From Branchiostoma floridae (Eukaryota > Chordata > Leptocardii > Amphioxiformes > Branchiostomatidae): a stretch of 64,000 nucleotides of DNA. The notes under the pieces are model-generated. The model worked only from the letters and a program-made list of their open reading frames with translations. It searched no databases and was not told where the DNA came from. The translations under genes and the position numbers were made by a program. Positions within the stretch are counted from its first letter, which is position 1, and every line of letters begins with the position of its first letter. The stretch is taken from assembly GCF_000003815.2 (NCBI RefSeq), contig NC_049982.1, positions 23,825,380 through 23,889,379 on the forward strand. The letters run 5' to 3'. Positions 1 through 43,541 of this stretch are shown in pieces.

Positions 1-1644
1 CAAAATGTTGTACAGAAATGACTGTAACAAACGTTACCATTGTTCGATGCTGTCTAACCTTTCTACTTGACCTGGTGTAAAAAAGCTGCCCACTTTTTAA
101 ATGTCCCTATTGACGTCCACTTATAGCTAAATGATGTAGTCAATAAGGTAAGTCCTTTCGAAGAAAACAGGGTAAAGTCTACTGTTGTAACAAACGTTAC
201 CGGTAACGTTTGCTACCTGCCCTGTAATGCATTACCAATGGGACCGACAATAATAAGTTGATATTTTTTGGCTATGGTTAAGAGGTATTTTCCTAAACAA
301 CCAGGTAGTTTTCACCGAAAATAAAGCCGATTTATTTTTCGACCAAAAAAAGGCCATTTTCGACATTTCAATGAGAACGAGTGTAATTCATTTTTGCCTG
401 TTGTGCTCTAGCCTGTTTTTGTACTTGTAGTGACACTAGCCAGGAATTATATATATAGTTGAAGAGTGAAACTTGTTGAATAGTTGTAAAGAGGCACCAC
501 TATGGAAGTCATGAGTGTAGTTGCCAACTTAGTGATACCAGTATATATACTACTAGTACATTCGTGTCACTTTTACTACATTAGTTCACTTCTGTAATGC
601 AGGTACGAATGCCTTGTTAGTTGTGATGTCCTTGTTACGTTTATGGTGTCTATTTTGAACTTGTTTTTTTCGCCCTACATCACATTTTCATAGATGAAAC
701 ATGAACTTTAGCAAGAAAGAGAATTTAGTTAACTTATAATCAATATTGTTTTCAAAATTACAAAAGATGTAAGTGATTAGATATTTCTATGTACCACAAC
801 GAATTTGCTACCATCTGGCCGAGCATGATTGAAGCAAGGTGAAAATAAAAGACAAAAAATGTACTCTGTTGACTTATCAACACACCAGATTATTTAATCA
901 GCAAATGTGGTCAAATATGTACAAAGTTGGGCTTTTCTTGAACACACAGGGAGGATTGCTGTCACCTTACACAATCCAACATGTCATACAGACAGAATGT
1001 TTCGTTGTTTGGCCTAGGAAAATCATAGTCCAAATACGTGTACATGTGGAGTTCAAAACATAAACATTACTGCAGTAAATAGTATAAGCCCATGACCACA
1101 AATCCCACTTAAGTTCCAACAGGACAGTGCCAAAACACACAGGGAGTTGACTGGAAGACAGCTAGGCTGACAGTTTAGAAGACAGGACAAACTGTCAAAG
1201 ACTAACACATGAACAGAAAGGTAGAAATGTTGCTTACTAAAATTGCTTACTCTTTTACTTAACATTATAAGAATTAAAATCTAGATACTTCTATATCCAT
1301 GTTGATTGAAGCCTTAGAGATATTCCTATACTTCCTGATAATAAACCACACTACAAAAGTCAAAACCTATTCAAAGCTGAAACATCTGAAGATATGCCAA
1401 AACATTACAAGCTAAAACTGACAAGCTTAATTAAGTAAGACGATTAAAGAGAGCGTCACAAAAAGTAATAAACATTACTTGCGCATAAATTAACAAAATA
1501 ACGCAGGTCATCAAATCAGACAGTACACCTGTGTACTTTAAAACATCAGACTGTGACCTTGATCCATTTTGAAAGCTGATATAGATAATATAAAAGTATG
1601 ATAGGAGGTAAACTGTCTATTTACAAGGTTGTAAAGAGGTGAAA
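1..1644. other. 3' flank of the Ki-67-like gene
   Basis: AT-rich, no coding region that I can support; the small open frames here show no domain or splice context. The 3' UTR of the minus-strand gene must lie at the upper end. I found no AATAAA on the minus strand within the first kilobase; an ATTAAA at about 892-897 and an AATAAA near 331 are possible poly(A) signals, neither proven. Contains a palindrome at 191-212. Confidence 0.5.
191..212. repeat. 22-bp perfect palindrome, with a related direct repeat at 23-38
   Basis: CAAACGTTACC followed by its exact reverse complement. The 16-base string TGTAACAAACGTTACC occurs at 23-38 and again at 186-201. It may be the end of an old inverted-repeat element; no full element is visible because the window edge is close. 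Confidence 0.6.
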
Positions 1645-3843
1645 TCACTTCCTTCTAGACCTGAGGGTCCTCTTTACTGGTGTTGGAGATTTGGCCTTCT
1701 TCCCCGCTCCCCTGGTCTTCTTGGGTGTCGGAGTCGCTGGTTTTGCTGCGGCCTTCCCCCGCGTGCTTCTGGACTTTGCAGGAGTGGCTGGCTTCTCCTC
1801 AGCTACTGCTTTCCTCCTGGTGGTGCGGGTTTTCTTGGCTGGAGATGCCTTTTTCGCTGGAGATGCTTTCTTTGCTGGAGAAGCTGCCTTCACTGGGGAC
1901 GCTTTCTTTGCCGGTGATGCCGCCTTCACCGGAGAAGCTTTAGTAGCCTTTGCCCTGGTGGAGCGGCCCTTCTTGGCAGGAACTTTAGCTGGTGCAGCTT
2001 CCTCCACTACTGCTGCCTTAGCTCTTGTGGTGCGCGCCTTTTTGGCTGGTACTTCAGCTGGGGTGGGCTCTTCAGCCTCTTCTTTTTTCGTAGCCCTTGC
2101 GGCCCTGCCTCGCTTTGCTGGTGCCTTCACAGGAGAGGCAGGGGCTGGTGTTTCCTCCTTCTCTTTCTCGCTGACAGCTGCCTTTCCGCGCCTTGTAGTA
2201 CGTGTCTTCTTGGCTGGAGAAGCTGCCACGGGTTCCTGAGTTGCTGCCGCCCTTTTCGCTCCCCTCTTGGGCTTCACGGGAGAATCAGCGACCTCGATGA
2301 CCTCTGGTTCTGCTTCTTTGGCTCCACGCCTCGTACGCTTCACAGGTGAGGCAGCTTTGGGTGTAGGTTCTGGAGCAGCCTCCTCCACAATCTTCTTTGT
2401 AGGTGCTTTCCTCCCTCCTCTTGTCTTCTTGACAGGTGAGGCAGGTTTAGCAGGTGAGGCCACCTTCTCAGGACTGAAAGCCACCACTTCCGGCTCAACG
2501 ACTTTAGCGGCCGCCTTCTTGCCACGCCCACGAGTGGCGCGGGTCGGTGCTGGAGCTTCCTCTTGAGTCTCTGGTGCTGCTGGTGCTTTACCCCTACGAA
2601 TGGCCCGCTTGGTTGGCTTTTCTGGGGACTTCTTTGGGCTGACTGCCTTGACAACTTCCACTTCAGCCACTGGCTCCTTTGCAGCTGGTTTGGTAGCCCT
2701 GGTCTTCCTTGTCTTCTTGGGAGCAGGCTCAGGAGTTGGTGGTACATCGATGGTGACTTTCTTGGCCTGGCGGCCACGCTTTGCTGGTGGTGACTTGGTG
2801 GTTTCTTCTGCTGTGTCAGAAAGTTCCTCGACACGGGACCTCTTGCTTCCATGTTTAGCTGGTGATTTGACAGGGGTAGGTTCGGCTGCCTTTGCTACCT
2901 TCTTAGCACTGGCAGGCTTCTTGGCGCTGGCAGGCTTCTTGGCACTGGCAGGCTTCTTGGCACTTGCTGGTGCCTTCTTCTTACTTGCCGGGGTTTTGGC
3001 TGGTGTCTTCCTTGCAGGCGTAGTAGACACTGGGGAGGCGAACATCTCTTGGAGCCCAGTGTAGTCATCTGTGAACTCGTAGACATCTAGCGCCTTTTGA
3101 CTGGGAGTTGTCATCATCCTTTTGAGGCCACGGAAGTCTTCCAATGGAGCTGACTTGTTCTTCGGGGTGTGGAAGATGCGCTTCAGGCCAGTGGGACTCT
3201 CCACAGGTTTGCCAGGTTGTCCTTTCGGGGTCTTCAGAATGCGCTTGATGCCAGATGGGCTGTGAACAGGGGAAGCCGCTGCTGCTTTCGGGGTCTTCAT
3301 GATACGCTTCAGACCAGCGGGGCTGTTGACTGCAGCACCCTTAGTCTTGGGGGTCTTGGTGAGCCTCTTGATGCCTGCTGGACTGACCATGGGGGAGCTT
3401 GCTTCTTTTGGTGTCTTCAACAGACGAGCAACGCCAGCGAGTACTGCACTGTTCCTGCCTCGCCTTGGAGTGGGGGTGTTCAGGGGAGACACGTACATCT
3501 CCCCGGGGCTGTTGGGGGTCTGCAGATCGGCATACAGGCTGGAAACACTCAACTTCTGGGCTGACTTTGGAGTCTTGGAGGCAGACTTGGGGGTCTTCTT
3601 AGAAGAGCTCTGCTTGGGTGTGGCCTTGCGCTTAGGTGACGGAGTGGTGAACATCTCCTGCATTCCTGTGAAGCTGTCGTCAGCGGACTCCACGGCGCTC
3701 TTCTTGGTGACACCGGACTTGCGACCCTTGCGGAACTTGGTAGGAGCTTTCTGTGGTTTGGCTGCTGGAGTCCTTGCCTTGCGGATGAAGATGGTGGCTG
3801 GGGAGTCGACATGCCCTGTAGTCTTCACGCCCACCCTTGGGGT
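1645..3843 (-). CDS. MKI67: Ki-67-like exon 11 (terminal): Ki-67-type repeats and basic tail
   Basis: Residues 965-1696 and the TGA stop (1645-1647). The first part has GHVDSPATIFIRKA and TGMQEMFTTP, matching the conserved segment just before the large repeats of vertebrate Ki-67. Residues 1091-1234 are short repeats of the form G-(I/L)-K-R-x-x-x-TPK ending LEDFRGLKRMMTTP and TGLQEMFASP; vertebrate Ki-67 repeats carry related EDLAGFKELFQTP-type motifs. The remaining ~460 residues are Lys/Ala/Pro-rich with many SPVK and KTRR motifs and end KRTLRSRRK. By position and charge the tail is comparable with the chromatin-binding LR domain of vertebrate Ki-67, but that equivalence is inferred. Acceptor TTTATAG. 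Confidence 0.95.
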   Translation of the reverse strand, partial: TPRVGVKTTGHVDSPATIFIRKARTPAAKPQKAPTKFRKGRKSGVTKKSAVESADDSFTGMQEMFTTPSPKRKATPKQSSSKKTPKSASKTPKSAQKLSVSSLYADLQTPNSPGEMYVSPLNTPTPRRGRNSAVLAGVARLLKTPKEASSPMVSPAGIKRLTKTPKTKGAAVNSPAGLKRIMKTPKAAAASPVHSPSGIKRILKTPKGQPGKPVESPTGLKRIFHTPKNKSAPLEDFRGLKRMMTTPSQKALDVYEFTDDYTGLQEMFASPVSTTPARKTPAKTPASKKKAPASAKKPASAKKPASAKKPASAKKVAKAAEPTPVKSPAKHGSKRSRVEELSDTAEETTKSPPAKRGRQAKKVTIDVPPTPEPAPKKTRKTRATKPAAKEPVAEVEVVKAVSPKKSPEKPTKRAIRRGKAPAAPETQEEAPAPTRATRGRGKKAAAKVVEPEVVAFSPEKVASPAKPASPVKKTRGGRKAPTKKIVEEAAPEPTPKAASPVKRTRRGAKEAEPEVIEVADSPVKPKRGAKRAAATQEPVAASPAKKTRTTRRGKAAVSEKEKEETPAPASPVKAPAKRGRAARATKKEEAEEPTPAEVPAKKARTTRAKAAVVEEAAPAKVPAKKGRSTRAKATKASPVKAASPAKKASPVKAASPAKKASPAKKASPAKKTRTTRRKAVAEEKPATPAKSRSTRGKAAAKPATPTPKKTRGAGKKAKSPTPVKRTLRSRRK

Positions 3844-6800
3844 CTATAAAGGAAGAACAGTTCAGAAAAAAAACTTAAGTACATAGCATGGGCTTCTCTC
3901 TGTACTCTCTACGTATGAAATAAGATTACTTCAAGGTCTACCTGCTGAAAGTAATGAGCATTTGTCTTTACATACTTCTGAGAAGCAAACATGAAGGAAA
4001 GAATATTGGCTTTCTATTTAGAAGCAATGATAGCCTTTTTGGATCATCCCTTTTAATTTTCTTGTTACATACCAACGTATGGAGTTATAGGAGCTTTAGG
4101 TAACTTATTCCCACCTTGGGTGCCTTCAGCATGCTCTTGCGTTTGGCCAGAGACAGCTTCTTGCTGGCGACTGTTTGGACGACAGTCTTCGTCTTCACAA
4201 TCTTGGCCCCGACAGGTCCACTCAGGGTAGTTGACTGGAACAAAAACAGGAAGAGTGGTTGGTTTAGATTAAGTACTGACAATCTTTCATCCGACAATTT
4301 TCTTGGAAATATGCTGTAAGAAATATGACTACCATTATCATTTTTTCATTACTACATGGTTTATTTTTTCAAGCTTTGCACATTTTTTACTAGAGTTTGA
4401 CATTGATTAATGTCTTTACCTTTTTGTTGGCTGCCTTGACAATGTCTGCCCAGGTCTTCCTTGCTGGTGTCTTGCGTGCTGGAGTCTTGCGAGCTGGTGT
4501 CTTGCGGGCAGGGGTACCACTCTTGCGTGTGCTCTTTGGAGTCTTCACTGTTACTTGCTGCTTGAAGAGACAGAAAAGTTGTAGTATTCTACAATTACCT
4601 GTAGTCCAGAGCTAGTCTTTTTTTCTTCAAAATACCGAGAAATAAATTTTACCTGCACCAATCATTTTCTTTGCCTGTCCTTTTGTCAAAACATTGATTT
4701 ATACAGAATACTACTCACTTACTGCAAGTTGCAAACAACCAATGCAATTGAAGTATTGGCAGCTTCTGACTGCATTACTAAGTTAGTGTCACATTCAATC
4801 AGGGCTTTAGCCAGCTCGAGATTTTTTTCCGTCAGCCAATTCCCATTGACGGAAAATTCCTGTCAAGAATCTTTTTTTTTCCGTCATTGCGTAAAAATTT
4901 CCGTCATTGACTGCAAAAATGTCTACCTCGTCCGATATAAATGTTGTCATTGGGAGAAAATATGACACCACGCTGACGTTTTGTAATAATGTGAACAGTA
5001 AAACATCGTTTCTTTGCGTTTTCCCCGCAAAAACACGGCGCTAAAATCAACTCGCGGGGTATGCAAATCTAACATTACATATTCTCAATACGCACTGTTG
5101 ATTGGTTGATCGTAACATCAGGAGGGGCGTCTCCTCAGATCCCCCGCTCTGATTGGTAAAGCCATGGATACCGACCCACGATGCACCTCGCGCACCAGCG
5201 TTCAAATATTTTATTTGTTTGAAAATGTTACATTATTTTGTAAAGGCAGGAGAACGCTATATTTTTCTAATTAAGAATTAAAAAAAAATTCTAATTAAGA
5301 ACACAATTACTCAAAGACTCTTTTGAGAAAACATGCATTCATATACGGATTTATGGTGCATTTGGGGAAATTTTGGCGTTCAATTAACCCGGAAGTGTGC
5401 CAACAACAACGTGGCGTGGGTATCTCATCTGTGTCGCTGCAAAATTAGCGTTTTCTCGTCAAAACAAAAACAAAATTCCCGCTGAAGAGAACCGTGCAAC
5501 ATTTTAGATCCTAAAGATTATGTTTTTGATCAAACTATTTGTGGATAGCATGATGTGCCGGTTCTTTTAGCTGCGACTGGCACCTTGCGTTGTCGCAAGC
5601 GGCGCGGCTGGGCGAGCGAAAATAAGTTGTACGGCCAGCCCTGGCACGCTAGCGTACAAGTTAGGTTTTGATGAGTGTCAAGATTCCAAACAAAGTTCGT
5701 AGAATGCACTGTTCTTGGAGTGAGACCTTGAAAAATGGGTTTTTAATGAGATTATCGTATGCGAAAGGGTGCCGACACACAATCGTCAACAATCATGACA
5801 ATAGCAAAACAAACAGTGTGTGGCTTTCCGACAATGGGCTGTCCGGGCGCCCCCAAGCCGTAGCTTCCCTCTTTTCAACTTGGCCTCCTTGCTTCAATCA
5901 ACGATTTTTTTTCCGTCAAGGTTGACGGATTGGTTGAATTTTTTTTCCGTCACAGTCACACGCAGCAAATTTCCGTCAATTGACGGAAAAACGGACGCTG
6001 GCTAAAGCCCTGCATTCAATGTATGGTGTTACACATGGTAAGAAATCAGGCCACATAGCCATTCCACATGCAGACACAAAATAACACAACTCTATGTTTA
6101 ATTACCAACAATTTTAAGATGTATGCATAATACAGGACTAGAAATATTTTATCCATTCAGCTTACCTTCCTGCGTTTTCCAGCTGGGGCATCACCACTCG
6201 GGGTGCTCAACTTTCTCTTCTGCCCACGCTTCGCTGGGGTGGCAGTCTTTTTAGGTGTCTTCTTCGGGGTTGCTGCTTTCTTGAGAGTCCTCTTTGCAGG
6301 TGTTGCAGACTTAGGGGTAGCCACCTTTGCCGGTGTAGCAGATTTTGGTGTAGCCACCTTTGCTGGTGTAGCGGGCTTGGGTGTAGCCACCTTTACTGGT
6401 GTAGCGGACTTGGGGGTAGCCACCTTAGCCTTGGGTGTGGCCACCTTTGCTGGTGTAGCAGACTTGGGTGTAGCCACATTTGCTGGTGTAGCGGACTTGG
6501 GTGTAGCCACCTTTGCTGGTGTAGCAGATTTTGGTGTGGCCACCTTGGCTGGTGTAGCAGACTTGGGTGTAGCCACCTTTGCTGGTGTAGCAGACTTGGG
6601 TGTAGCCACCTTGGCTGGTGTAGCAGACCTGGGTGTAGCCACCTTGGGAGAAGCAGCCTTAGGAGAAGCCCTGACTGGTGTGGCAGACTTGGGTGTAGCC
6701 ACCTTTGCTGGTGTTGCAGATTTTGGTGTGGCCACCTTTGCCGGTGTAGCGGACTTGGGCGTAGCCACCTTGGGAGAAGCAGTCTTCGGAGAAGCCCTGA

Positions 6801-9800
6801 CTGGTGTGGCAGACTTGGGTGTAGCCACCTTTGCTGGTGTGGTGGACTTGGGCGTACCCACCTTGGGAGAGGCAGCCTTAGGAGAAGACCTGACTGGTGT
6901 AGCTGACCTCTTGGGGGAAAGCTTCTCGGCACGAGCAGTGACAGCCTGCTTGAGCTCTTCACGCACTGGTGTGGGGAATCGACGAGCCAAGTTGGGCGAG
7001 GCTCCTAGAGCCTTCTTGGCAATCACCCTCCTGAGCTCCTCCTTCGCTGGAGTAGACATCTTGACCCTTGCAGGAGTCGGCGTCCTTTTCACAACGGCAG
7101 GCTTGGGCGTAACTTGCTTGGGAGAGGCTGCCCTGGGGGTCCTGGCTTTGGGTGAAGGAGTCTTGGCCTTTGGAGATAGAGACCTTGCCCTGGGAGGTGT
7201 CTTGCTCTTAGGTGTGGCAGCCTTCACTGGGGTCTTGGCCTTAGGAGTCACTGCCTTTGGGGTCTTTGCCTTTGGAGATGGTGTCTTGGCCTTGGGTGAT
7301 GGGGTCCTGGCCTTTGGAGAAGGTGTCTTGGCCTTAGGAGATGGAGACCTTGCCCTGGGAGGAGTCTTGGTCTTAGGTGTAGCAGCCTTAGTTGGTGTCT
7401 TGGCCTTAGGAGTTGCTGCCTTTGGTGTCTTGGCTTTCGGAGATGGGGTCCTGGCCTTGGGAGATGGTGTCTTGGCTTTGGGTGAAGGAGTCTTGGCCTT
7501 AGGAGATGGAGTCCTCGCCCTGGGAGGTGTCTTCCCCTTGGGAGTGGCAGCCTTCACTGGAGTCTTAGCCTTAGGAGATGGAGTTTTAGCCTTCGGAGAT
7601 GGGGTCTTTGCCTTGGGGCTCTTCGCACGTGGGGTGGCCTTCTTCGGGGTGATCTCTTCTCCCTCGGCTATGGTGGTGGTTCGTGGGCTGACCGCTAGAG
7701 AGAAACGCCTCTTCTTCATGTCTGGAGTTTGAGCCAGGATGCCTCCGGTGGACCTCCTGGTCATCGGTGATGCCCCACGGCGCAGGGGCAGGGCTGGAGG
7801 CATCTTCTTGTCAAAGTGCTCTGGACTGAGGGCAGGGCCAAACGACACACGCTTGGACAGGGACTCAAACTCAGACGGTCCGGAAGACTTCCTCTTCTTG
7901 CCTGCAGACTTGGCGGGTGTGACCTTTGCTGGTGTTGCTTTTTCTGAAACAAAAGCTTACTATGAATCTCTGGTATCAGTAACATCAACAAAATGTAATG
8001 TAGAGGAAGGTTTGAAAAAGATATGTTCTGAAAATCATGTGAAAAGCTGTGTGAACCGTTGTTTACCAATCAAAAGATCAAATAAGTCAGAGATGTAATA
8101 AAGATTTTTCACAATTGGAATAGCCCTAAAGCATTAACAGTTCATGTCATTGTACTTACTGGTCTTGGGAGTTTTTGGCGACTCCTCAGAAAGGGCCTCC
8201 TGAAGTGGCGCAGAGCGGCGGCGCAGCTCAGTGATGCTGGTCTTCAGCGGCATCACGGCAGGCTGTCGGGGGCTACCAAAGGGAGGGGCCTACAGGGGGC
8301 AGAGTGGACAGAGGTGAGCAACACCGACATTTCATAATACACGGATTTCTTTTTTTTCATAGTTATAACTTATACCATATGAGAACATTTTCACAACTCA
8401 AATGTACATAGGCAGGGGAAGCATCAGGTGCATTTCTCTGAATGGAATACAATTTAACATTTTCTAGATACAGAACATATTGAATGCACTGCTGTTAGTT
8501 CTGGGAGAAAAGTTCAAATGTGTGGTTCATGCTCCATAAGGTAAGTTGTTACAACTCTAACAAAGATATAATCATTTGGTATACCATTTTTTTAAGTATA
8601 CGCTTAAAGATATTCTTACATAGATTGTAGTTGAACAAATGTACCTTCTAGGAGTTTTTCACAGTGCCATGAAGTCATATCATGCATATGGGCATCAGAC
8701 CGAGATGTATCAACAGGACTTCAGTATTACGTCCCCGTATAAAATACGGTCATCATCTGCACTTTCATTGTGTTGCGAACTTGACATAAATCAACAGAAC
8801 TTGAAAAAGAAACACAGAATGCAGAATGTACTCTTACCTTCTTGCCACTCTTCTTCAGTGGGGAGCTTGCCCGCCGGCTGGAGGCAGGGGAGGAGTCCTC
8901 ACCCTGGGGCAGCTCTTCTGCAGGTTTGGGACTGGCAGAGCGTGCTGGAGACTTCTACATCAATAGAGAATGTGTAAAAAAAATGCATTAACACATAAAA
9001 AAAAAGAAACAAAATTAGAAAAGACTCCCACACACTAGTTGAAGCCACAGGCTACTTCCAAAATCAGACAAAAGTTTGTTCAACATCAAACTATTGCTTG
9101 TTCATAGTTCTATTTACCTTTGGAGTTGCCTTCTTGGCAGGAGTTGCATGCTTGGGGGACTTGGCAGCAGGAGTAGCTGTCTTCTCTGGGGTGGCCTTGG
9201 AGGCCTTGCCTGGGGACTTGTTGGGAGTCTTGGCCCTACCAGGGCTCTTGGTGCCAGCTAGTGGAACATAACAATGAACATGTTACATTTCTACATACAT
9301 TTTGATTTATCAAGACTTGCATCTCAAGCAAACATAAACAGGTCCCTTATTTCAGTCATATGTTTCAGAGACCTGCTGACCACAGTAATTGTAATTTCTT
9401 AGACAAGCAGGCTGTAATTTCTAAGACTACATTTTTTTCTAAACAGGGTACTGAAGCTATAGTGTCTATCAAAATCAAAAGTTGTCTGTCTGAAGAAATG
9501 ATCTGCTCATTATAACTGCTGTTAAGACACATCACACCTAAGAGGTTCCAATGTTAGAATCATTTCAAAATATGCAAGCAACAAATGGCAAGCTATGCTC
9601 CTCTCTTAGTCTTTGCTGGGGAAAAATGCATGTTAAGTTTCTTCAAAATTGTACCAAAGTCCTCAAACATGCACTCAGCACACATTTTGTGGTTCAACAC
9701 TCAAACACACAACACCAACTTGGCTGATTTTCAGCCAAGAGTTATAAAAGACACACGAACAATGAACAACAATTTACCGTTTTCACTACCTCTTTTTGGT

Positions 9801-12395
9801 GGGCTCGACCCCTTCTTCGGGGTTGTTCCAGCCGGCACCTCTGTCTTCCCAGCGTCCTGGATCTCATGGAGCGGTCCAGAGCTTACAGACCTGTGGAGAA
9901 CAATGAGAAATTACTGTAAATCCTGGAATACTGACAGCACTTACAAGTCCACATCACTCACCACTCCCACAGGCAGATAATGACTTTTCCTACTATTAAA
10001 TGTGTTGTGTTACACCATGTTTCAATCACAAACTGAAAAATAAAAAGACAAATGCAAACTCTTGATTTTTGCTGTGCTGCAAAATTACAGTAGGCCTGCC
10101 TGACATTTCCTTCAGGAGTTACACTGATCCCCCAAACTTCTGACTGTAAATATATTTTTAATTTCCAAATTGTGATTCAGAAACTTGCTGTAAAATACTT
10201 GTTTGTTATGGTTGCCTCCTTCCACTCCCTTTTAGTTTTACCTCCTCAACCGCAACCAAAGTATGGTACCCATTTATCCACCTAGGTGGATGAAGAGTGA
10301 TGTATTAGGTGAATTTCACTATGACAAAATATGTCGCCAAGAAATTGAAGAATCAAACCAGGACCTCCCCATCTCCTATCCAATAGACAAGCCATTCGAA
10401 GCAACATGTCTGTTTAGAGGTATACAATTTCATTGAGAGAGAATGAGACCCTTTAAGACAAAGAGAAGGAGTCTTACTTGTCCGGGGACGACTGCTTGCG
10501 CTTAGACGGGCTGATACAGAACTTGGAGGATGGAGGGAACTCAAAGCGGAAGGAGCGGTCGACGATGGTGAAGACATCCTTGTGTTGGATGACGATAGAG
10601 TTGGTGACAGGCTTGCCATTCAGGATGGTGGGGTTTACATCACTAAGGTTGGACAGCACAACCTGTAGAGGGAGATGAGGTGTGTGTTTTATTCATATTC
10701 ATAATGACATTCCTTCCTTGGGACTCAGGGCTATTTCCAGGACCTGTCCCTCCATCCCAGTTTGTCAGTTCTCTGATGGGATAAATTTCACCATGTCTGT
10801 CCAAAACATCTGAACTTCATGACAAGAAATTGATTATTTTCATAACCGTAGGTAGGGCTGGGTATCGGTACAGCGTACCGGTACAAAACCGGTTTTTCTT
10901 ATTGGACCGGTCCAGAAAAACCGGACCTGAAAAAATTGGGTCGACCGGACGTTGGACCGATTAGAAAATTAAGAAATTATTTTGTCAGGCATTCACACGT
11001 TTTGGTGCTTGTACAAGTTGTAGGTGGAAGAAAATAACAAGAGTGAAGTAGAGTAGAGTTTATAGTAATGTCTACCAAGTTTTACAGCCAATCGTACAGG
11101 TGCAGTTAGCGTTGTAGGATTTTAAAACGCCAGTGTAAGTCTCATACTCCACCAAACAGATTTCTTTGTAGTGAAATGGACCATTGGTATGAGTCATACT
11201 GAATCAGGTCCAGGTTCAGGTCCAGGCCTGATGCTCTGGACCTGAACCGGACCTGAATTTTCTGTACCGGTACCCAGCCCTAACCGTAGGTCATGACAGA
11301 TAGGAACATGGGCTTTCATTTTTGGACTAAAAAAAATTGAAAGCTGGAGACTGCCCTGTTTGGGCTTACAATTTTGTAGTGTTAAAATTCAGCATCAGTA
11401 TTACGGGTCACAGACTAGTACAAGTTACCTAAAGAGAGACATACTATAGAAAATGGCAAGGTCAGTAGCCGTAGCCAAAATGTTTCCGAATTTTTACATT
11501 ATCAAACCATAATTTTTTGTAATGCTAATAGACTCCTTTCCTAGCTACAGCACAGGTGATAATAGATGATGAAGATCAGGCATTAAAACATTTTCATATG
11601 CAAATGATATACCATTGTGATCGACATAGTTTTAGCACCTGACCGTCGTCTTTCCATTAATTATGGCATTATGCGCTGGAGTTTGGAAAAGGGTCTATTG
11701 AGACAATTTGAATGTCAAAGCTGTGGTGAGTCGACAAAACTTGTCTGTAACCAGGTTTCAATGGTACAACAAGGCTGAGGTACGAAGTACAAAAACTGCC
11801 ACCCTACCTCCTCATTATCTTTCACATCCACCTTACAATGCTCCCTGGAAACATTGGGCAGCTGGATCCGGATGTCGCACTCATTGGTCCTGTGCAAAAG
11901 CAATGGAACAAGATTCAAATTCAAAACTCTCAAACGTCGAAGTAGTTTCTTCACTTCATCTGACGTCTGTATAAACACAACATGTATATTATGCACCAAC
12001 GTGCATAACTCAAATATGTCACTGACAACTTCCGAAATGATTTATGTGAGTCTGCTTCACTTGGTTATTAGATTTTCTAAAGAAATTAATGGAATGGGCG
12101 GGTGAAAATATCTTCTGATAGACCTAGAAATTTATTGTTACCGTCCATAGAACTGACAGATATAAAGACTGTGTTGAACATACAGTACATAATTTCCAAA
12201 CAGTAAGTTAACACTGAACTTTTAACTTACATTACAATTTGCATGACAATTAAAACAGAGACTTGTGAACATATTGTTGTCTGATGTAATCTATTTTGGT
12301 CCATACCTGCCGAACAGACAGGAGCTGGCGGTGAGAGGGAAGTGCGCTCCGTCCTCGCCGTTTCGCTTGATCACGACTATCTTACCGAACAGCAT
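1645..12395 (-). CDS. MKI67: Ki-67-like chromosome-surface protein, complete gene (11 coding exons)
   Basis: The coding sequence is the join, on the minus strand, of 12395-12307, 11889-11808, 10662-10478, 9890-9778, 9257-9118, 8954-8838, 8289-8160, 7943-6166, 4557-4420, 4234-4115 and 3843-1645. This totals 5091 bases, 1696 residues plus a TGA stop. Every intron is GT-AG and all phases agree. Seen: FHA domain (about residues 1-100), a KRVSFG PP1 motif (316-321), SPKAKTP-type repeats (383-562), ATPKSATPAKV-type repeats (632-837), a TWADIVK segment (about 913-919), a SPATIFI...TGMQEMFTTP block (974-1032), short LKR..TPK repeats (1091-1234), and a basic tail ending KRTLRSRRK. Known of the family: vertebrate Ki-67 coats mitotic chromosomes, recruits PP1 through RVSF, is phosphorylated by CDK1, and is a marker of proliferating cells. 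Repo-Man (CDCA2) shares the PP1 segment but has no FHA domain, so the FHA argues for Ki-67 or the common ancestor. The exon model is inferred; no transcript was available. Confidence 0.9.
3034..3465 (-). repeat. Short Ki-67-type protein repeats (about 25 residues) in exon 11
   Basis: Roughly six units of the form SP-x-G-(I/L)-K-R-(I/L/M)-x-x-TPK cover residues 1091-1234, for instance SPAGIKRLTKTPK, SPAGLKRIMKTPK, SPSGIKRILKTPK and SPTGLKRIFHTPK. The array ends in a less regular pair (DFRGLKRMMTTP, DDYTGLQEMFASP). Vertebrate Ki-67 units are about 122 residues and contain comparable G-(F/S)-K-(E/R)...TP motifs. Confidence 0.75.
4115..4234 (-). CDS. MKI67: Ki-67-like exon 10: basic linker
   Basis: Exactly 40 residues (925-964), phase 0 at both ends: STTLSGPVGAKIVKTK at the start and SLAKRKSMLKAPK at the end. 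Basic, without a recognised domain. It leads directly into the conserved segment of exon 11. Acceptor TGTTCCAG, donor AAG|GTGGGA. Confidence 0.88.
4420..4557 (-). CDS. MKI67: Ki-67-like exon 9: TPARK micro-repeat and WAD-VK segment
   Basis: Residues 879-924. Four tandem copies of a TPARK unit are followed by KTWADIVKAANKK. Vertebrate Ki-67 and Repo-Man carry a similar SWADVVK segment between the PP1 site and the repeat region, so this short piece helps orthology. Acceptor TCAAGCAG, donor AAG|GTAAAG, phase 0 at both ends. Confidence 0.9.
4800..6012. mobile_element. Non-autonomous hAT-type DNA transposon, 1213 bp
   Basis: The ends are perfect 16-base inverted repeats (CAGGGCTTTAGCCAGC at the left, its complement at the right), flanked on both sides by the 8-base direct repeat CATTCAAT (4792-4799 and 6013-6020). 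An 8-bp duplication with CAG-starting ends is the hAT signature. Next to each end are several copies of TTTCCGTCA in both orientations, like the subterminal transposase sites of hAT elements. No transposase frame is present. It fills about three quarters of the intron between exons 8 and 9. Confidence 0.92.
6166..7943 (-). CDS. MKI67: Ki-67-like exon 8: PP1-docking motif and two Ser/Thr-Pro repeat arrays
   Basis: Residues 286-878. Near the start lies SKRVSFGPALSPEHFD (315-330) followed by LPLRRGASP. This is the RVxF-type PP1 docking motif plus the flanking (L)xPExFD and PL(K/R)(K/R)G sequence shared by vertebrate Ki-67 and Repo-Man. Then come SPKAKTP repeats (383-562), a less repetitive segment with two EEL(R/K)-containing units (581-627), an 11-residue ATPKSATPAKV-type array (632-837), and a basic end (KRKLSTPSGD...KRRK). 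Dozens of S/T-P-x-K/R sites are potential CDK1 targets. Acceptor TTTGTTTCAG, donor AAG|GTAAGC. Long opposite-strand open frames here are mirror images of the repeats, not genes. Confidence 0.95.
6289..6906 (-). repeat. Coding minisatellite 2: 33-bp units encoding ATPKSATPAKV
   Basis: About 206 residues of near-identical 11-residue (33-bp) units, broken by a few variant blocks (VRASPKAASPK). The DNA is as similar as the protein (GGTGTAGCCACCTTTGCTGG recurs on the plus strand), which points to recent unit expansion or homogenisation. Copy number may vary between alleles or be mis-assembled. Confidence 0.92.
7114..7653 (-). repeat. Coding minisatellite 1: SPKAKTP-type repeats in exon 8
   Basis: About 180 residues of imperfect tandem units built on SPKAKTP, SPKARTP and ATPKAKTP, with an interspersed TPPRAR spacer that recurs about every 50-60 residues as a higher-order period. 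Nearly every unit has one or two S/T-P-x-K/R sites. It is in frame throughout, so it is coding repeat expansion rather than non-coding satellite. Confidence 0.9.
8160..8289 (-). CDS. MKI67: Ki-67-like exon 7: linker before the PP1-docking segment
   Basis: Residues 243-285 plus one base of codon 286. It includes PPFGSPRQPAVMPLKTSITELRR-type sequence, the most hydrophobic stretch outside the FHA domain and possibly a short helix (SITELRRRSAPLQEAL). Splice sites are CCTGTAG and ACCA|GTAAGT. I know no named domain for it. Confidence 0.85.
8290..8837 (-). other. Intron between exons 7 and 6 of the Ki-67-like gene
   Basis: 548 bp, AT-rich, bounded by GTAAGA and CCTGTAG splice sites in the minus orientation. 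I see no repeat or conserved element in it. Confidence 0.8.
8838..8954 (-). CDS. MKI67: Ki-67-like exon 6: Ser/Pro-rich linker
   Basis: Residues 204-242, phase 0 at both ends. It starts KSPARSASPKP and ends SSPLKKSGKK. Four SP sites and a basic C-terminal patch fit a disordered, phosphorylated linker. Splice sites are GATGTAG and AAG|GTAAGA. Confidence 0.82.
9118..9257 (-). CDS. MKI67: Ki-67-like exon 5: Lys/Thr/Pro-rich linker
   Basis: Completes codon 157 and encodes residues 158-203. It has repeated TP and SP sites spaced by lysines (KSPGRAKTPNKSPGK, KATPEK, HATPAKKATPK), several of the S/T-P-x-K CDK form. Splice sites are CCACTAG and AAG|GTAAAT. No folded domain is visible. Confidence 0.82.
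9258..10477 (-). other. Introns around exon 4 of the Ki-67-like gene
   Basis: Two introns (9258-9777 and 9891-10477), AT-rich, interrupted only by exon 4. Nothing else recognised in them. Confidence 0.8.
9778..9890 (-). CDS. MKI67: Ki-67-like exon 4: linker
   Basis: Residues 120-156, with split codons at each end (119 Lys and 157 Ala). Low-complexity Lys/Pro/Ser linker with two S/T-P sites (TTPKKG, SSPPKR). No domain is visible. It is supported by a CTCCACAG acceptor, a GTAAAT donor, and a frame that continues both neighbours. Confidence 0.8.
10478..10662 (-). CDS. MKI67: Ki-67-like exon 3: end of the FHA domain and linker
   Basis: Residues 58-118 plus two bases of codon 119. The segments NLSDVNPTILNGKPV and HKDVFTIVDRSFRFEFP match the C-terminal half of a Ki-67 FHA domain. 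The N-P-T-x-L-N-G turn and the DRSFR(F/Y)E strand are hallmarks of Ki-67 rather than of other FHA proteins. A short basic Ser/Pro linker (SPSKRKQSSPDK) follows. The acceptor is CTCTACAG and the donor CAA|GTAAGA. Confidence 0.93.
10853..11282. mobile_element. hAT-type MITE, 430 bp
   Basis: The ends are TAGGGCTGGGTA and its complement, flanked by the 8-bp duplication ACCGTAGG (10845-10852 and 11283-11290). The inverted repeat continues imperfectly (GGGTATCGGTACAG against GGGTACCGGTACAG). The interior is rich in CCGG and GGTCC(A/G) motifs. No coding capacity. It lies in the intron between exons 2 and 3 of the Ki-67-like gene. Confidence 0.93.
11808..11889 (-). CDS. MKI67: Ki-67-like exon 2: FHA core with the phosphopeptide-binding loop
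   Basis: Completes codon 30 (Arg) and encodes residues 31-57. It contains ECDIRIQLPNVSREHCKV. The Arg of the LFGR turn and the Ser-Arg-x-His type motif (here SREHC) are the classical FHA phosphothreonine-binding residues, and all are kept. The acceptor is TTTGCACAG and the donor is GAGGAG|GTAGGG. In vertebrate Ki-67 this domain binds phosphorylated NIFK and a kinesin (Hklp2/KIF15); conservation of those partners here is inference. Confidence 0.92.
11890..12306 (-). other. Intron between exons 1 and 2 of the Ki-67-like gene
   Basis: 417 bp, bounded by GTATGG and TTTGCACAG in the minus orientation. No repeat or other feature recognised. Confidence 0.8.
12307..12395 (-). CDS. MKI67: Ki-67-like exon 1: start codon and first strands of the FHA domain
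   Basis: Residues 1-29 plus two bases of codon 30. The protein starts MLFGKIVVIKRNGEDG and ends in SCLFG. The phospho-threonine-binding FHA fold of vertebrate Ki-67 has the same opening (a KIVVIKR-like strand, then a SxCLFGR turn). The donor is GCAG|GTATGG on the minus strand. The ATG was chosen because the FHA fold begins directly after it and a good acceptor (pyrimidine tract followed by GTGCAG) lies only eight bases upstream at 12404-12406. The exon therefore probably starts at 12403 and is preceded by a non-coding exon. Confidence 0.9.
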
Positions 12396-12715
12396 CGCGA
12401 CAACTGCACGCCAGAAGAAGGGGAGACAAAAAATTCTTGTTACGACTGGAGAAAATCATTTTTTTTTTTTGTCATGTAATAATTTGATGTCCAAAGTTCA
12501 GTTCATTGGTTCCATACGAAACGGCTGGGGGAAAAGAGGGAGGGGGGTAGAAAAATAACGTGTTGCCAACAAAAAATCTGCATAGACACAAACGCCAGCT
12601 TACACAGATATGCCAAAATCAACATAACATGTAATCGTCATTTGTAATTGAAAGTGAATGAAATGTTAGAAGGGTGGAAAGTCAAGCTTTTGTGCAAATA
12701 TTTCCACATTCTCAC

Positions 12716-12900
12716 CTGGAAGCGGTGAAAAACGACCGTTGACGAAAACAAAGAGGCAGACAAGAAGAAGGCAGACACGAAACAAGAAAATAACAGCGAA
12801 ATCTTACCTGAATACGTTAAAAACTCACACAAATGTGTCCCCTGCTATATGTAGATTTCCTAGTTTAGACTTAATTCTCCCGGTAAGGAGAATAAGCTAA
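12716..12900 (-). other. Candidate 5' non-coding exon(s) of the Ki-67-like gene
   Basis: Two good donor sites in the minus orientation, CCAG|GTGAGA (exon edge 12716) and TCAG|GTAAGA (exon edge 12808), lie upstream of the acceptor at 12404-12406. Either could end a 5' UTR exon; the true start of transcription is not visible. A GCGCGTA/TTTTGCGCG stretch near 12900-12915 resembles an E2F core but deviates from the strict consensus. Confidence 0.35.
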
Positions 12901-13204
12901 AAAATACGCGCAAAATTTAGCATAAACGCGCCGGCAGATCCACGCCGCGAACTTTGCCAGGAAAAATAGCTACAGTGGGTGTATCACCTCCCATTTATCC
13001 ATCCGCACAAAGTAGTTCTGATAAATAGCTGACATAAAACAGCTACAGATAGGTACGAATTATCTTAAAAGTTGAATGTAAAACGTAATTTGTAAAATAT
13101 GAATAGAAATCCACGATATATTATGAATATAGTATCGCAATTTTCCTGTTTTTAATATTTTTCGCGGATGGATATTGCTACAAGTCGAAACAGGGTCTCG
13201 CCGG

Positions 13205-13290
13205 TTCGGTTAGAAGTTTGAATTACTGCGCCCTTTGTTCTGATTGGTTGCCGGAAGCATGCCCGGACTTGTCTTTCCCATATATGGGTA
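13205..13290 (-). promoter_or_regulatory. Candidate cell-cycle promoter cluster upstream of the Ki-67-like gene
   Basis: Within 75 bp are TTTGAA (13217-13222, a CHR core), GCGCCC (13228-13233, CDE-like), ATTGG (13243-13247, a CCAAT box on the minus strand) and CCATATATGG (13278-13287, a perfect CArG/SRF box). In vertebrates CCAAT plus CDE/CHR sites repress cell-cycle genes in G0/G1. The order on the minus strand is CArG, CCAAT, CDE-like, CHR, about 0.8 kb from the start codon. Function is inferred. Confidence 0.4.
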
Positions 13291-13952
13291 AGATTAGTCC
13301 AAATCAGACTACAACCTTAAACTTCATATCTATTTCCTAAATGTTTGACAGTCAAACAAAAAAATAGTACTTAAAGAGAAAATGTAGTAATAGATATCAT
13401 ACAAAGTATACGTATTAATTAATATTGGATATTTGTATTCAACAAATCGTTTAAAACGTATCTCAATTAATTATACGCCCCTAGAACCAATAATGGTTGC
13501 GCCGTATTTGCACTACCGAAATCTACCGGTAGAGGCCGTTAGCAAGTGACATTGCGTCTAAGTTTTCAAGCCTTGATTTTGGTTAGTTAGCGGTTTATAG
13601 TTAACGTGAACCTATGATCATATGTCGGCGACAAAGCACAATCTTTCAAAGCGGCTTGTGGATTACAATTACATGTTATATAACGTTATACCGAGACGGA
13701 ACAGCAGGGAAGCGACTGTAACAATATGACGTTAGTGAACTACTTTCCGGATGGTACCCGGGCTTAGTTTATTAGTTTAATAAATAAGAAGTTTATTTGC
13801 AAGTTCTTGCCCGAGGGCTAATTGCAACATGAAACATACAGAAAATATAATAAACATGTATAAAATGAAATACTTTGGGATAGATAACAATGGTGACAAG
13901 TGTAAACGAGTGACTATTCTATCAATGATATGGACTGCTGAGAGCTACAATC

Positions 13953-14052
13953 NNNNNNNNNNNNNNNNNNNNNNNNNNNNNNNNNNNNNNNNNNNNNNNN
14001 NNNNNNNNNNNNNNNNNNNNNNNNNNNNNNNNNNNNNNNNNNNNNNNNNNNN
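13953..14052. other. Assembly gap (100 N)
   Basis: Run of N, exactly 100 bases, so probably a placeholder of unknown true length. Open frames drawn across it are not real. Confidence 1.
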
Positions 14053-14832: not shown

Positions 14833-15716
14833 NNNNNNNNNNNNNNNNNNNNNNNNNNNNNNNNNNNNNNNNNNNNNNNNNNNNNNNNNNNNNNNNNNNN
14901 NNNNNNNNNNNNNNNNNNNNNNNNNNNNNNNNNNNNNNNNNNNNNNNNNNNNNNNNNNNNNNNNNNNNNNNNNNNNNNNNNNNNNNNNNNNNNNNNNNNN
15001 NNNNNNNNNNNNNNNNNNNNNNNNNNNNNNNNNNNNNNNNNNNNNNNNNNNNNNNNNNNNNNNNNNNNNNNNNNNNNNNNNNNNNNNNNNNNNNNNNNNN
15101 NNNNNNNNNNNNNNNNNNNNNNNNNNNNNNNNNNNNNNNNNNNNNNNNNNNNNNNNNNNNNNNNNNNNNNNNNNNNNNNNNNNNNNNNNNNNNNNNNNNN
15201 NNNNNNNNNNNNNNNNNNNNNNNNNNNNNNNNNNNNNNNNNNNNNNNNNNNNNNNNNNNNNNNNNNNNNNNNNNNNNNNNNNNNNNNNNNNNNNNNNNNN
15301 NNNNNNNNNNNNNNNNNNNNNNNNNNNNNNNNNNNNNNNNNNNNNNNNNNNNNNNNNNNNNNNNNNNNNNNNNNNNNNNNNNNNNNNNNNNNNNNNNNNN
15401 NNNNNNNNNNNNNNNNNNNNNNNNNNNNNNNNNNNNNNNNNNNNNNNNNNNNNNNNNNNNNNNNNNNNNNNNNNNNNNNNNNNNNNNNNNNNNNNNNNNN
15501 NNNNNNNNNNNNNNNNNNNNNNNNNNNNNNNNNNNNNNNNNNNNNNNNNNNNNNNNNNNNNNNNNNNNNNNNNNNNNNNNNNNNNNNNNNNNNNNNNNNN
15601 NNNNNNNNNNNNNNNNNNNNNNNNNNNNNNNNNNNNNNNNNNNNNNNNNNNNNNNNNNNNNNNNNNNNNNNNNNNNNNNNNNNNNNNNNNNNNNNNNNNN
15701 NNNNNNNNNNNNNNNN
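14833..15716. other. Assembly gap (884 N)
   Basis: Run of N; its odd length suggests an estimated gap. Any frame spanning it is an artefact. Confidence 1.
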
Positions 15717-16829: not shown

Positions 16830-16962
16830 NNNNNNNNNNNNNNNNNNNNNNNNNNNNNNNNNNNNNNNNNNNNNNNNNNNNNNNNNNNNNNNNNNNNNNN
16901 NNNNNNNNNNNNNNNNNNNNNNNNNNNNNNNNNNNNNNNNNNNNNNNNNNNNNNNNNNNNNN
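16830..16962. other. Assembly gap (133 N)
   Basis: Run of N. Confidence 1.
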
Positions 16963-21081: not shown

Positions 21082-21181
21082 NNNNNNNNNNNNNNNNNNN
21101 NNNNNNNNNNNNNNNNNNNNNNNNNNNNNNNNNNNNNNNNNNNNNNNNNNNNNNNNNNNNNNNNNNNNNNNNNNNNNNNNN
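21082..21181. other. Assembly gap (100 N)
   Basis: Run of exactly 100 N, a placeholder gap. Confidence 1.
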
Positions 21182-34480: not shown

Positions 34481-37400
34481 TCGCCAACAAGATGTAAGGG
34501 GGGGAAAATGTCATGGGTATTTGAGCACAAACTCCCAGTGTACGTCTGCACATATGGGTAAACTAAATAATGGGGTCGTCTGATGGGTGGACGCTGCCAG
34601 TGTACGTGACACGCTTGAATTCCTGGGAAGCGGAAAGCACCCCACCATCCATTCTACAGGCTCTGCCCGGCCGCAGAAATTGCATAATGATTTGTGTCTC
34701 TCCCGGTCGTTTGACAAATCCAGCCGTTTCAGGGGAAAGATGTGGCGTCAACAGAAGCCTCCATCTCGCCACCAACAATTTGGGAGGACGAAGGGAGGAA
34801 ATGGGGCGGGGAGGGAGGAAATCAGGCGGTCGTATGTCCAGCCGGCTCCCTGCTGCAGCTTTGTCTTACCTGGTGGGGATGGAAGGGAAAAGATTGGTTT
34901 GTGTTGGGAGAAATGTAGGAAAGAAACCGGAAGTGTTTCCCTTGACAAAGGCAGAAATTATGTGGCATATAGTCAGTTGATTTGTAACATAAAAGTGGCA
35001 AGAAAGATTGTGTAGCCGCACATGTAGGTCCCTGTGGGGAAGGGCAGTGTTAGAGGTGTTAAGTTTGTGGAGCTATGCGTCGCCTTTCTTCTGGCCCTCC
35101 CCCCGGAGTCGGGACGGTAGACGTGGCGACTGTGAGAAGCGCTGCGGTGCTGATCATCGTCTCTCCGGTGTCCTCATCATCCCCACTGTCACTCATCGTT
35201 ATGTTCTGCACTGATGACAAGCTCAGATACAATGAGGCAGTTTGCATGCACAGAGCCCCGGCCACAGTCTCCCTGGTAGCGTTCAACCATGTTGGATTTG
35301 TGTAAAACCCCTCGGAGGATGCGCCTCTGTAGGCCGAGCGCTCGGCTCATTATTTTGGCTGCCGGCAATCCGGGGATTTGGCGAATCCGCGTTTTGCTTG
35401 TTAGTTATCCCCCGCTTGTCGGAGTGTTTCTATTCCCAGGAAAGACACAAACAATGATGAATGCAGGTTTGGCCTCCCAATTATGAGAGCCTCTGCCTCC
35501 GGGCAGTAGGTTCCTCGCATTTTCCTCCTTAACAGGGGGAGGTGCGATTTTTACTACATGCAATTAAGGAAATGGGCGATAACGACCCGGGAAGGCCTTC
35601 CTTCCTACAATCAAGGGAAGCATTAAAAGGTACAGTCCATCTGTGGAGATAAAAGCTTTGGCGTGAGGTTTGCTTGCCCTACTGCTTTTATTACTTTCTC
35701 CAAGGTTAACTTGTCCCTCCTACCTTGGAAATGACATTGTACCAATTATCCCATAAGCTCAGTAGAAAGGCGGGATTGTTCTATGTGGTGAAGTTACCCA
35801 GGCAGGGGTTCCACCACGAGTAGGGAGAGTGTCTGCCTCCCTCATTTGAATATGAACAGGGGTATTTTCCCCCATAAATTGCAGTAATTATTCCGGATGA
35901 ATGGAACCCCTGCCTGAGTGTGTGTAGCTGGAAAGCGATGTGGACACCGCCGCCGAGAAATCACGGCACAGGAGGAAGCCATTTGCCCGTAATCTCTGGC
36001 CGTATTTAGCGGGAGAGTTCCTCGGGTGTGCTGTACAAACCCTGCAGTGGACATCTGCCTTGTGTGCAGGAATGTGATTTTTTCTGTCTCCCCGGCAACC
36101 TCCACAAGTGTGACTTACTCAGGTAGGGATTCCTTACTGATGTTTGAAAGTGTAAGACCTCTCTCCTTCCCGGAACTGATTGATAACGTTAATCATTAAC
36201 ATTGTTCTGCAGCTTTCTCCATGTTTCTTTCAAGAGAGTTGCTTGAGGAATTTTGCCGGTATCACAAGCAGTCCATGGAGTAATGATTAAAAGTAGTATA
36301 TTTATCTTGCAGACCACCCAAACCTCTCTCATGTCTGGCCCTATACGTGCCTTAGGCTATTGTTGGGGACTGAAAAGGCTTATAATGCCCGGCATTGACC
36401 AACCAAAATAGCAACGGATACCGCTCTTTTGTGGTGGACTTCACCGAAATCATTTTGCCCGACGAGTCTCACGTGAAATTCTGCTGTAACGTAATACATT
36501 ACATAGAAGGGAAATGAAACTGGAACAGAAAATAACTCATAGTCATAGGAGATGATGTTACTCTAAATGTATAGAGAGTACATATTCCTTGACACTGGTA
36601 TATATTACATGTACATGAATCTGAGTTGTGTTGAATCCAATATGAATTATGATTCAACAAGCTGTATACGCTTCTTATTTAAAGTACTGTTAAGAGGTTA
36701 TGTTGAAATGTATACAAATGCCCTTATATAACACCAAACAAGGCACACAACAATGCAATTCATTAGCACTAAACACTTCTAGCCCTGAAGCACTATATTA
36801 CAACAGATGAAATATTATGATTTGGTCTTATGTTAAATCTTTTTTTTTGTGTACGTGAGGCAGGTTTATCTCATGTTATGAATTAAGGCATGAAAGTTTC
36901 AGTGTCATAAAAGCAATTGCTGTGTTTTCTTTGCACAGTAGTATATATACTGTATGTATTGTCGAAAAGTGCTTTGAGTGAGAAGTTTCTCTACTTTGAA
37001 CTATTTTCTGTTTATTTTTGTGTATATACCAGTTCAGCCTATATTTAGACTAGAGCATCACATTTTGTGTATCCCAACCAGGAAGTTGAGGTGTGTACCT
37101 GTTGGCTATCAGTGTCTATAATCTGTTAACTGTTACACAATATGTGTATGTATAGGAAGGATCAGCTGAAGTCTATTTATATAACAACAGTGGTTTGATA
37201 GATGTCTGATATGAACAATATTGTCTTGTCTATACTGGTGTTAGCAGGCTTACCTGACCACTGTCATTCAAGACTAATACCCACAGGACACGGTAATGTA
37301 AACTTTGTGTCTTTGACTCAGCCAAAGAAAAATAAACAGGGGGATGGGGACTCCAGGCCAAGATATTGTGTGATGGGCTTTGGTCACGATTCGTGTCTAA

Positions 37401-43527: not shown

Positions 43528-43541
43528 TAGGGCTGGGTACC
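43528..43541. mobile_element. Possible isolated hAT MITE end
   Basis: TAGGGCTGGGTACC is the same terminal sequence as that of the 430-bp element at 10853. No matching right end or duplication was found nearby, so it is a truncated copy or a chance match. Confidence 0.35.

Follow-up and report, generated by a model that had tools for sequence, protein, structure and literature searches.

The protein Ki-67 coats the chromosomes of dividing cells. The window analysed here, a 64-kb stretch of amphioxus DNA, carries near one end a gene that a preliminary description took for a complete Ki-67 orthologue, which raises the question of whether the locus encodes a Ki-67-type protein in one piece and how such a protein relates to the vertebrate pair Ki-67 (MKI67) and Repo-Man (CDCA2). 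The same description treated Ki-67 as mostly a vertebrate gene, an angle that does not hold. Booth et al. 2014, in the legend to a figure, already name Ki-67 of Ciona, Saccoglossus, Hydra and Trichoplax in an alignment that includes Ki-67 and Repo-Man of vertebrates, and refer to a most parsimonious scheme of evolution (PMC4032110); Ki-67 has also been presented as the metazoan relative of the fungal protein bridgin (PMC7794384, PMC9252888). The amphioxus gene is a useful, well-preserved further example and not a surprise. Among the matches listed in the open-licence literature, we found no paper describing the amphioxus Ki-67 gene, and we found no open-licence paper that joins Ki-67, Repo-Man and amphioxus.

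A Ki-67-type gene in eleven coding exons

For the gene model, positions 1-14000 and the open frames on both strands were inspected, and splice sites were enumerated near the boundaries seen by eye, which yielded 768 fully in-frame variants. The top-scoring variant lies on the minus strand and runs from an ATG at 12395 to a stop codon at 1645-1647. Its 11 coding exons join without frame breaks, as originally proposed, into one frame of 1697 residues, and all 10 introns are GT-AG. The reading frame required by the join is open in every exon; eight of the 11 are open in a single frame, while exons 5, 9 and 10 are open in two. Some exon ends are uncertain by a few residues, for example at the donor of exon 4 and the acceptors of exons 6, 8 and 9. 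The features of the gene are as follows, with the evidence for each in brackets.

12307..12395, minus strand: coding exon 1, ATG at 12395, start of the FHA domain, aa 1-29 (splice model, FHA alignment)
11808..11889, minus strand: coding exon 2, FHA domain, aa 30-57 (splice model, FHA alignment)
10478..10662, minus strand: coding exon 3, end of the FHA domain, aa 58-118 (splice model, FHA alignment)
9778..9890, minus strand: coding exon 4, linker; donor preferably at 9778, alternatively at 9790 or 9787 (splice model)
9118..9257, minus strand: coding exon 5, TP/SP-rich linker (splice model)
8838..8954, minus strand: coding exon 6, linker, 117 nt (splice model)
8160..8289, minus strand: coding exon 7, linker (splice model)
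6166..7943, minus strand: coding exon 8, aa 286-878, PP1 dock followed by tandem arrays rich in TP/SP (splice model, Pfam)
7732..7854, minus strand: PP1_bind domain, aa 316-356, KiR-SLiM-like segment, with RVSF at 7840-7851 (Pfam, PDB search)
7136..7614, minus strand: 21-, 42- and 165-nt tandem arrays rich in SPxK/TP (codon-position counts)
6292..6907, minus strand: 33-nt (11-aa) TP-rich tandem array with longer periods superimposed (codon-position counts)
4420..4560, minus strand: coding exon 9, containing WADIVK at 4435-4452 (splice model)
4115..4234, minus strand: coding exon 10 (splice model)
1645..3843, minus strand: coding exon 11, aa 966-1697, stop at 1645-1647 (splice model)
3031..3675, minus strand: Ki-67 motif in seven copies, about aa 1022-1236, of which five follow one another every 20-21 residues (KI67R, spacing, shuffles)
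1645..3042, minus strand: basic C-terminal tail, aa 1233-1697, with 2 leucines and a net charge of +87 (composition count)

With the whole translated exon join as query, Pfam returned FHA and PP1_bind, along with Yop-YscD_cpl, which overlaps FHA and scores 40.9 bits. With the segments described below, the protein combines an FHA domain, an RVSF/KiR PP1 dock, Ki-67 motifs and a basic tail, in that order, and the identification as a Ki-67-type gene stands. The locus is apparently an intact Ki-67-family gene with a layout much as in vertebrates. Just 5' of the ATG, an acceptor-like CAG follows a pyrimidine-rich stretch, and GTAAG/GTGAG donors lie further upstream; these signals suggest that an additional non-coding 5' exon may precede coding exon 1.

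FHA domain, Ki-67 motifs and WADxVK segment

The FHA domain noticed at the N terminus was confirmed both by Pfam, at 53.7 bits for a fragment spanning exons 1-3 (cut-off 20.7) and 47.8 bits within the full-length protein, and by comparison with PDB chains. The top PDB matches were the human Ki-67 entries 2AFF and 1R21 (E about 5e-32), with 51 of 95 residues identical (54%). The next matches, FHA domains of GGDEF proteins at E = 9e-8, followed some 24 orders of magnitude behind, and KIF13B and MDC1, which are also FHA proteins of animals, matched at E = 0.003-0.006; among PDB chains, the top hits were to Ki-67 and not to another FHA family. Residues that we take to belong to the phosphopeptide pocket are conserved in the alignment to Ki-67, namely the GR arginine, the VSxxHC serine and the NPT asparagine.

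Ki-67-type repeats, also part of the initial claim, were recovered in exon 11. The Pfam family KI67R scored 41.0 bits on the first 285 residues of that exon (cut-off 32.4; best stretch, aa 1115-1212) and matched none of five shuffled versions of the fragment; it was not reported when the full-length protein was the Pfam query, which gave FHA, Yop-YscD_cpl and PP1_bind only. A Ki-67-like motif pattern, composed after the sequence had been seen, occurred seven times in the protein and in 0 of 2000 shuffled proteins. The copies start at residues 1025, 1122, 1142, 1163, 1184, 1204 and 1228 (spacing 97, 20, 21, 21, 20 and 24), and all seven lie within the single exon 11. Vertebrate Ki-67 repeats are likewise always encoded by one exon; the human ones measure about 120 residues and the chicken ones 60, those of zebrafish and chicken being much shorter than those of human (PMC8354752). 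The motif spacing is mostly about 20 aa in amphioxus, versus about 120 in human.

The segment previously singled out as WAD-VK extends from exon 9 to early exon 11. The peptide WADIVK is present in the gene's own frame, and this is the single occurrence of WADxVK in the six frames of the 64 kb. We presume that WADxVK followed by a TGHxxSP block recurs in vertebrate Ki-67 in the same order. The Ki-67 identity given to the segment is presumptive, and the searches did not add to it: the region from exon 9 to early exon 11 matched no Pfam family, and its best PDB chain was at chance level (E = 0.18).

CDK sites, tandem arrays and the basic tail

Full CDK consensus sites (S/T-P-x-K/R) number 71 in the protein, compared to a mean of 11.8 and a maximum of 26 in 1000 shuffles. 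By residue, 12 fall in 100-285, three in 286-390 and 28 in 391-878; exon 9 holds four, exon 10 none, residues 966-1232 two and the tail 22. The TP-rich arrays, which are distinct from the Ki-67 motifs, and the tail together account for 50 of the 71. Human Ki-67 has 90 CDK sites, 70 of them within its repeats (PMC8354752), whereas the amphioxus motif region (aa 966-1232) contains just two of 71. The CDK-site load thus seems to be maintained, although human and amphioxus Ki-67 carry it on different sequence.

We compared the copies within the exon 8 arrays by codon position. Copies lying 165 nt from each other in the 7136-7577 array show differences at 4 of 92, 8 of 93 and 30 of 92 sites at codon positions 1, 2 and 3, respectively, varying as translated DNA is expected to. 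At the 33-nt period of the other array, the corresponding differences are 46/178, 27/178 and 77/177. Third codon positions of the minus-strand frame vary most in seven of eight array-period combinations; the exception is the 33-nt array at a period of 165 nt (105/134, 61/134 and 96/133), and the contrast is modest at several periods. Opposite the repeat exon, an antisense frame of 533 aa is open on the plus strand (6131-7732). As variation peaks at position 3 of the minus-strand frame in seven of the eight combinations, that frame is favored, and the antisense frame is probably a shadow of the exon 8 repeats.

The basic tail was borne out by its composition, with a net charge of +87 across 465 aa (40 R and 87 K). 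Leucine accounts for two of the 465 residues, one of them in the last 300. The corresponding region of Ki-67 is named the leucine/arginine-rich (LR) chromatin-binding domain; the amphioxus tail is basic yet, contrary to that name, nearly leucine-free. We also considered whether charge in the tail is blocky and rejected this, as 322 of 1000 shuffles reached the observed value.

The PP1 dock

The RVSF-containing PP1 segment reported earlier proved to be a PP1_bind domain, scoring 45.4 bits on a fragment from the start of exon 8 (cut-off 27) and 39.7 bits on the full-length protein. Against the PDB, the segment matched chains of both human proteins: Repo-Man 5IOH at 32.8 bits (a longer construct), Ki-67 5J28 at 32.0 and Repo-Man 5INB at 29.0, these being its only PDB matches below E = 0.9. 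With bit scores about equal for both, the segment by itself does not appear to choose between Ki-67 and Repo-Man.

The published KiR-SLiM consensus is FDxxLP(P/A)N(T/S)PL(R/K)(R/K)Gx(T/S)P (PMC5005033). The amphioxus segment, FDKKMPPALPLRRGASP, agrees with it at 11 of the 14 specified positions, the departures being L>M, N>A and T/S>L; this is a departure from the wording of the motif, not from the PP1_bind domain. In Repo-Man, the Cdk1 sites are S400, T412 and T419 (PMC4032110, PMC5005033). Counting Repo-Man positions from RVTF 392-395 in the PDB alignments, we found that these read S-P, L-P and S-P in the amphioxus dock. The same positions in human Ki-67 (5J28) read R-P, M-P and A-P, where the M may be a variant of the construct. 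Likeness to human Repo-Man (CDCA2; PDB 5IOH, 5INB) lies in the PP1 dock, including serine-proline at the S400 and T419 positions. The Aurora-type site KRVS is also present in the amphioxus dock.

Relationship to Ki-67 and Repo-Man

What the PP1 dock leaves undecided, the layout settles in favor of Ki-67. Repo-Man has only the PP1 segment in common with Ki-67 (PMC5005033), whereas the amphioxus protein adds an FHA domain and Ki-67 motifs and has the full Ki-67 order. A protein of the Repo-Man type would have a PP1 dock without FHA and Ki-67 repeats; here Pfam detected both FHA and KI67R. Human Ki-67 (MKI67; PDB 1R21/2AFF for the FHA domain and 5J28 for the PP1 dock) is matched in the N-terminal FHA domain, the RVSF dock, the confinement of the Ki-67 motifs to one exon, the basic C terminus and the many CDK sites (71 here, 90 in human). 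It is longer, at 3256 aa (PMC5005033) versus 1697 aa, and the amphioxus protein differs further in its extra TP-rich arrays and almost leucine-free tail. Fungal bridgin (Bgi1), termed a Ki67 homologue, shares an FHA domain and a basic C-terminal chromatin-binding region; it is a kinetochore linker, and its description, as far as that source was available, mentions neither a PP1 dock nor Ki-67 motifs (PMC7794384).

Repo-Man was probably born by duplication of Ki-67 (PMC8354752). We consider it likely that this single, intact-looking Ki-67 gene, in an animal that probably stands outside the vertebrate duplication, corresponds to MKI67 and CDCA2 jointly, as their undivided counterpart, a status that we infer from the layout and from published statements. 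Another explanation would be the plain MKI67 of a vertebrate, for example a fish; an FHA domain 54% identical to that of human, and the far shorter repeats of zebrafish and chicken compared to human (PMC8354752), would agree with it. Motif spacing of mostly ~20 aa, versus ~60 in chicken and ~120 in human, and a tail almost without leucine argue weakly in the other direction, and we regard a vertebrate MKI67 as unlikely. The gene might also be one of two ancient paralogues, from a lineage-specific or older duplication, and the lack of preference in the PP1 segment (32.0 bits for Ki-67; 32.8 and 29.0 for Repo-Man) is what one could cite for this. That history appears quite improbable, however, given that the FHA domain and Ki-67 motifs make the gene Ki-67-type and that the Booth et al. 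2014 legend calls the non-vertebrate sequences Ki-67, its Repo-Man sequences being from vertebrates only (human, frog and zebrafish) (PMC4032110).

Each of these accounts takes the eleven exons as one gene. If the low-complexity linkers of exons 4-7 were instead to separate two genes, exons 1-3 would encode a small FHA protein and the remainder a repeat protein with a PP1 dock. Exon 3 ends in a splice donor, with GGACAA followed by GTAAGACT, and reading on unspliced leads to an immediate in-frame stop; moreover, the needed frame is open across all 11 exons, and the FHA domain, PP1 dock and Ki-67 motifs stand in Ki-67 order. We therefore view a division into two genes as highly improbable.

If the gene is indeed the undivided counterpart, lying outside the vertebrate duplication, it makes it possible to ask what in Ki-67 and Repo-Man is ancestral. 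The FHA domain, PP1 dock, Ki-67 motifs, CDK-site load and basic tail are suggested to be old, with repeat length and wording free to change. This would fit the view that Ki-67 acts by bulk properties, as a charged, phosphorylated brush, and not by a fixed repeat sequence.

The pattern at the Cdk1 positions of the dock, based on one sequence, may be the one feature that bears freshly on the split between Ki-67 and Repo-Man. Since serine-proline stands at the S400 and T419 positions, where human Ki-67 5J28 is without it, we offer a tentative and rather doubtful scenario in which the ancestral dock, as in an undivided protein, was gated by both Cdk1 and Aurora B. Repo-Man would then have kept the Cdk1 switch and Ki-67 lost it while keeping the FHA domain and repeats, and a short array of ~20-residue Ki-67 motifs would have expanded into the long repeats of vertebrates. 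If true, this would represent a division of ancestral duties between Ki-67 and Repo-Man.

Proposed function

Gene structure, domain content and order, and site counts were observed here; every functional step that follows is modeled on published functions of the human proteins (PMC8354752, PMC5005033). The basic tail would keep Ki-67 on mitotic chromosomes, and the long TP/SP-rich middle, phosphorylated by CDK1, would extend as a brush that keeps chromosomes apart. Meanwhile, the N-terminal FHA domain would bind partners such as NIFK in their phosphorylated state. Recruitment of PP1 by the RVSF/KiR segment is predicted for anaphase, once that segment has lost its Aurora B and Cdk1 phosphorylation, and the PP1 so joined would reverse the phosphorylation.

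Surroundings of the gene and transposon-like elements

We take CDCA2 to adjoin KCTD9 and EBF2. Vertebrate GnRH3 clusters with DOCK1, PTPRE, MKI67, MGMT, EBF3 and GLRX3, and GnRH1 lies near KCTD9 and DOCK5 (PMC6135963). The MKI67 and CDCA2 neighborhoods would be compatible with a pair born of whole-genome duplication. In the remaining 51 kb of the window, a crude scan for coding signal yielded 39 stretches, 11 of which were scanned with Pfam. None of these 11 (within 12400-64000) reached a Pfam cut-off, the best being 3HBD at E = 0.0046 and 17.6 bits versus a cut-off of 27. Nine short motifs that we took to mark neighbor genes gave one match, by chance, antisense to exon 11. With no neighbor gene recognized by these motifs or in the 11 of 39 stretches scanned, shared synteny is neither supported nor refuted. 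Across 12400-64000, there were no Rfam matches at gathering thresholds and no tRNAs. A G+C-richer patch near 34-36 kb contains a short minus-strand open reading frame (35083-35346) that matches no Pfam family.

Four runs of N, at 13953-14052 (100 bases), 14833-15716 (884), 16830-16962 (133) and 21082-21181 (100), begin ~1.5 kb upstream of the Ki-67 gene, and none lies inside it.

Two introns of the gene contain elements with terminal inverted repeats. The intron between coding exons 8 and 9 carries a 1213-bp element (4800-6012) whose terminal inverted repeats (CAGGG...CCCTG) are perfect over 16 bp, and an 8-bp duplication, CATTCAAT, flanks the element; it looks like a non-autonomous transposon, presumably of the hAT superfamily. 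The intron between coding exons 2 and 3 carries a 430-bp element (10853-11282) with the 8-bp duplication ACCGTAGG; its terminal inverted repeats (TAGGGCTGGGTA) are perfect over 12 bp, and its two ends agree at 19 of the first 20 bases. We take this second element to be a hAT-like miniature element, and a further copy of TAGGGCTGGGTA occurs at 43528.
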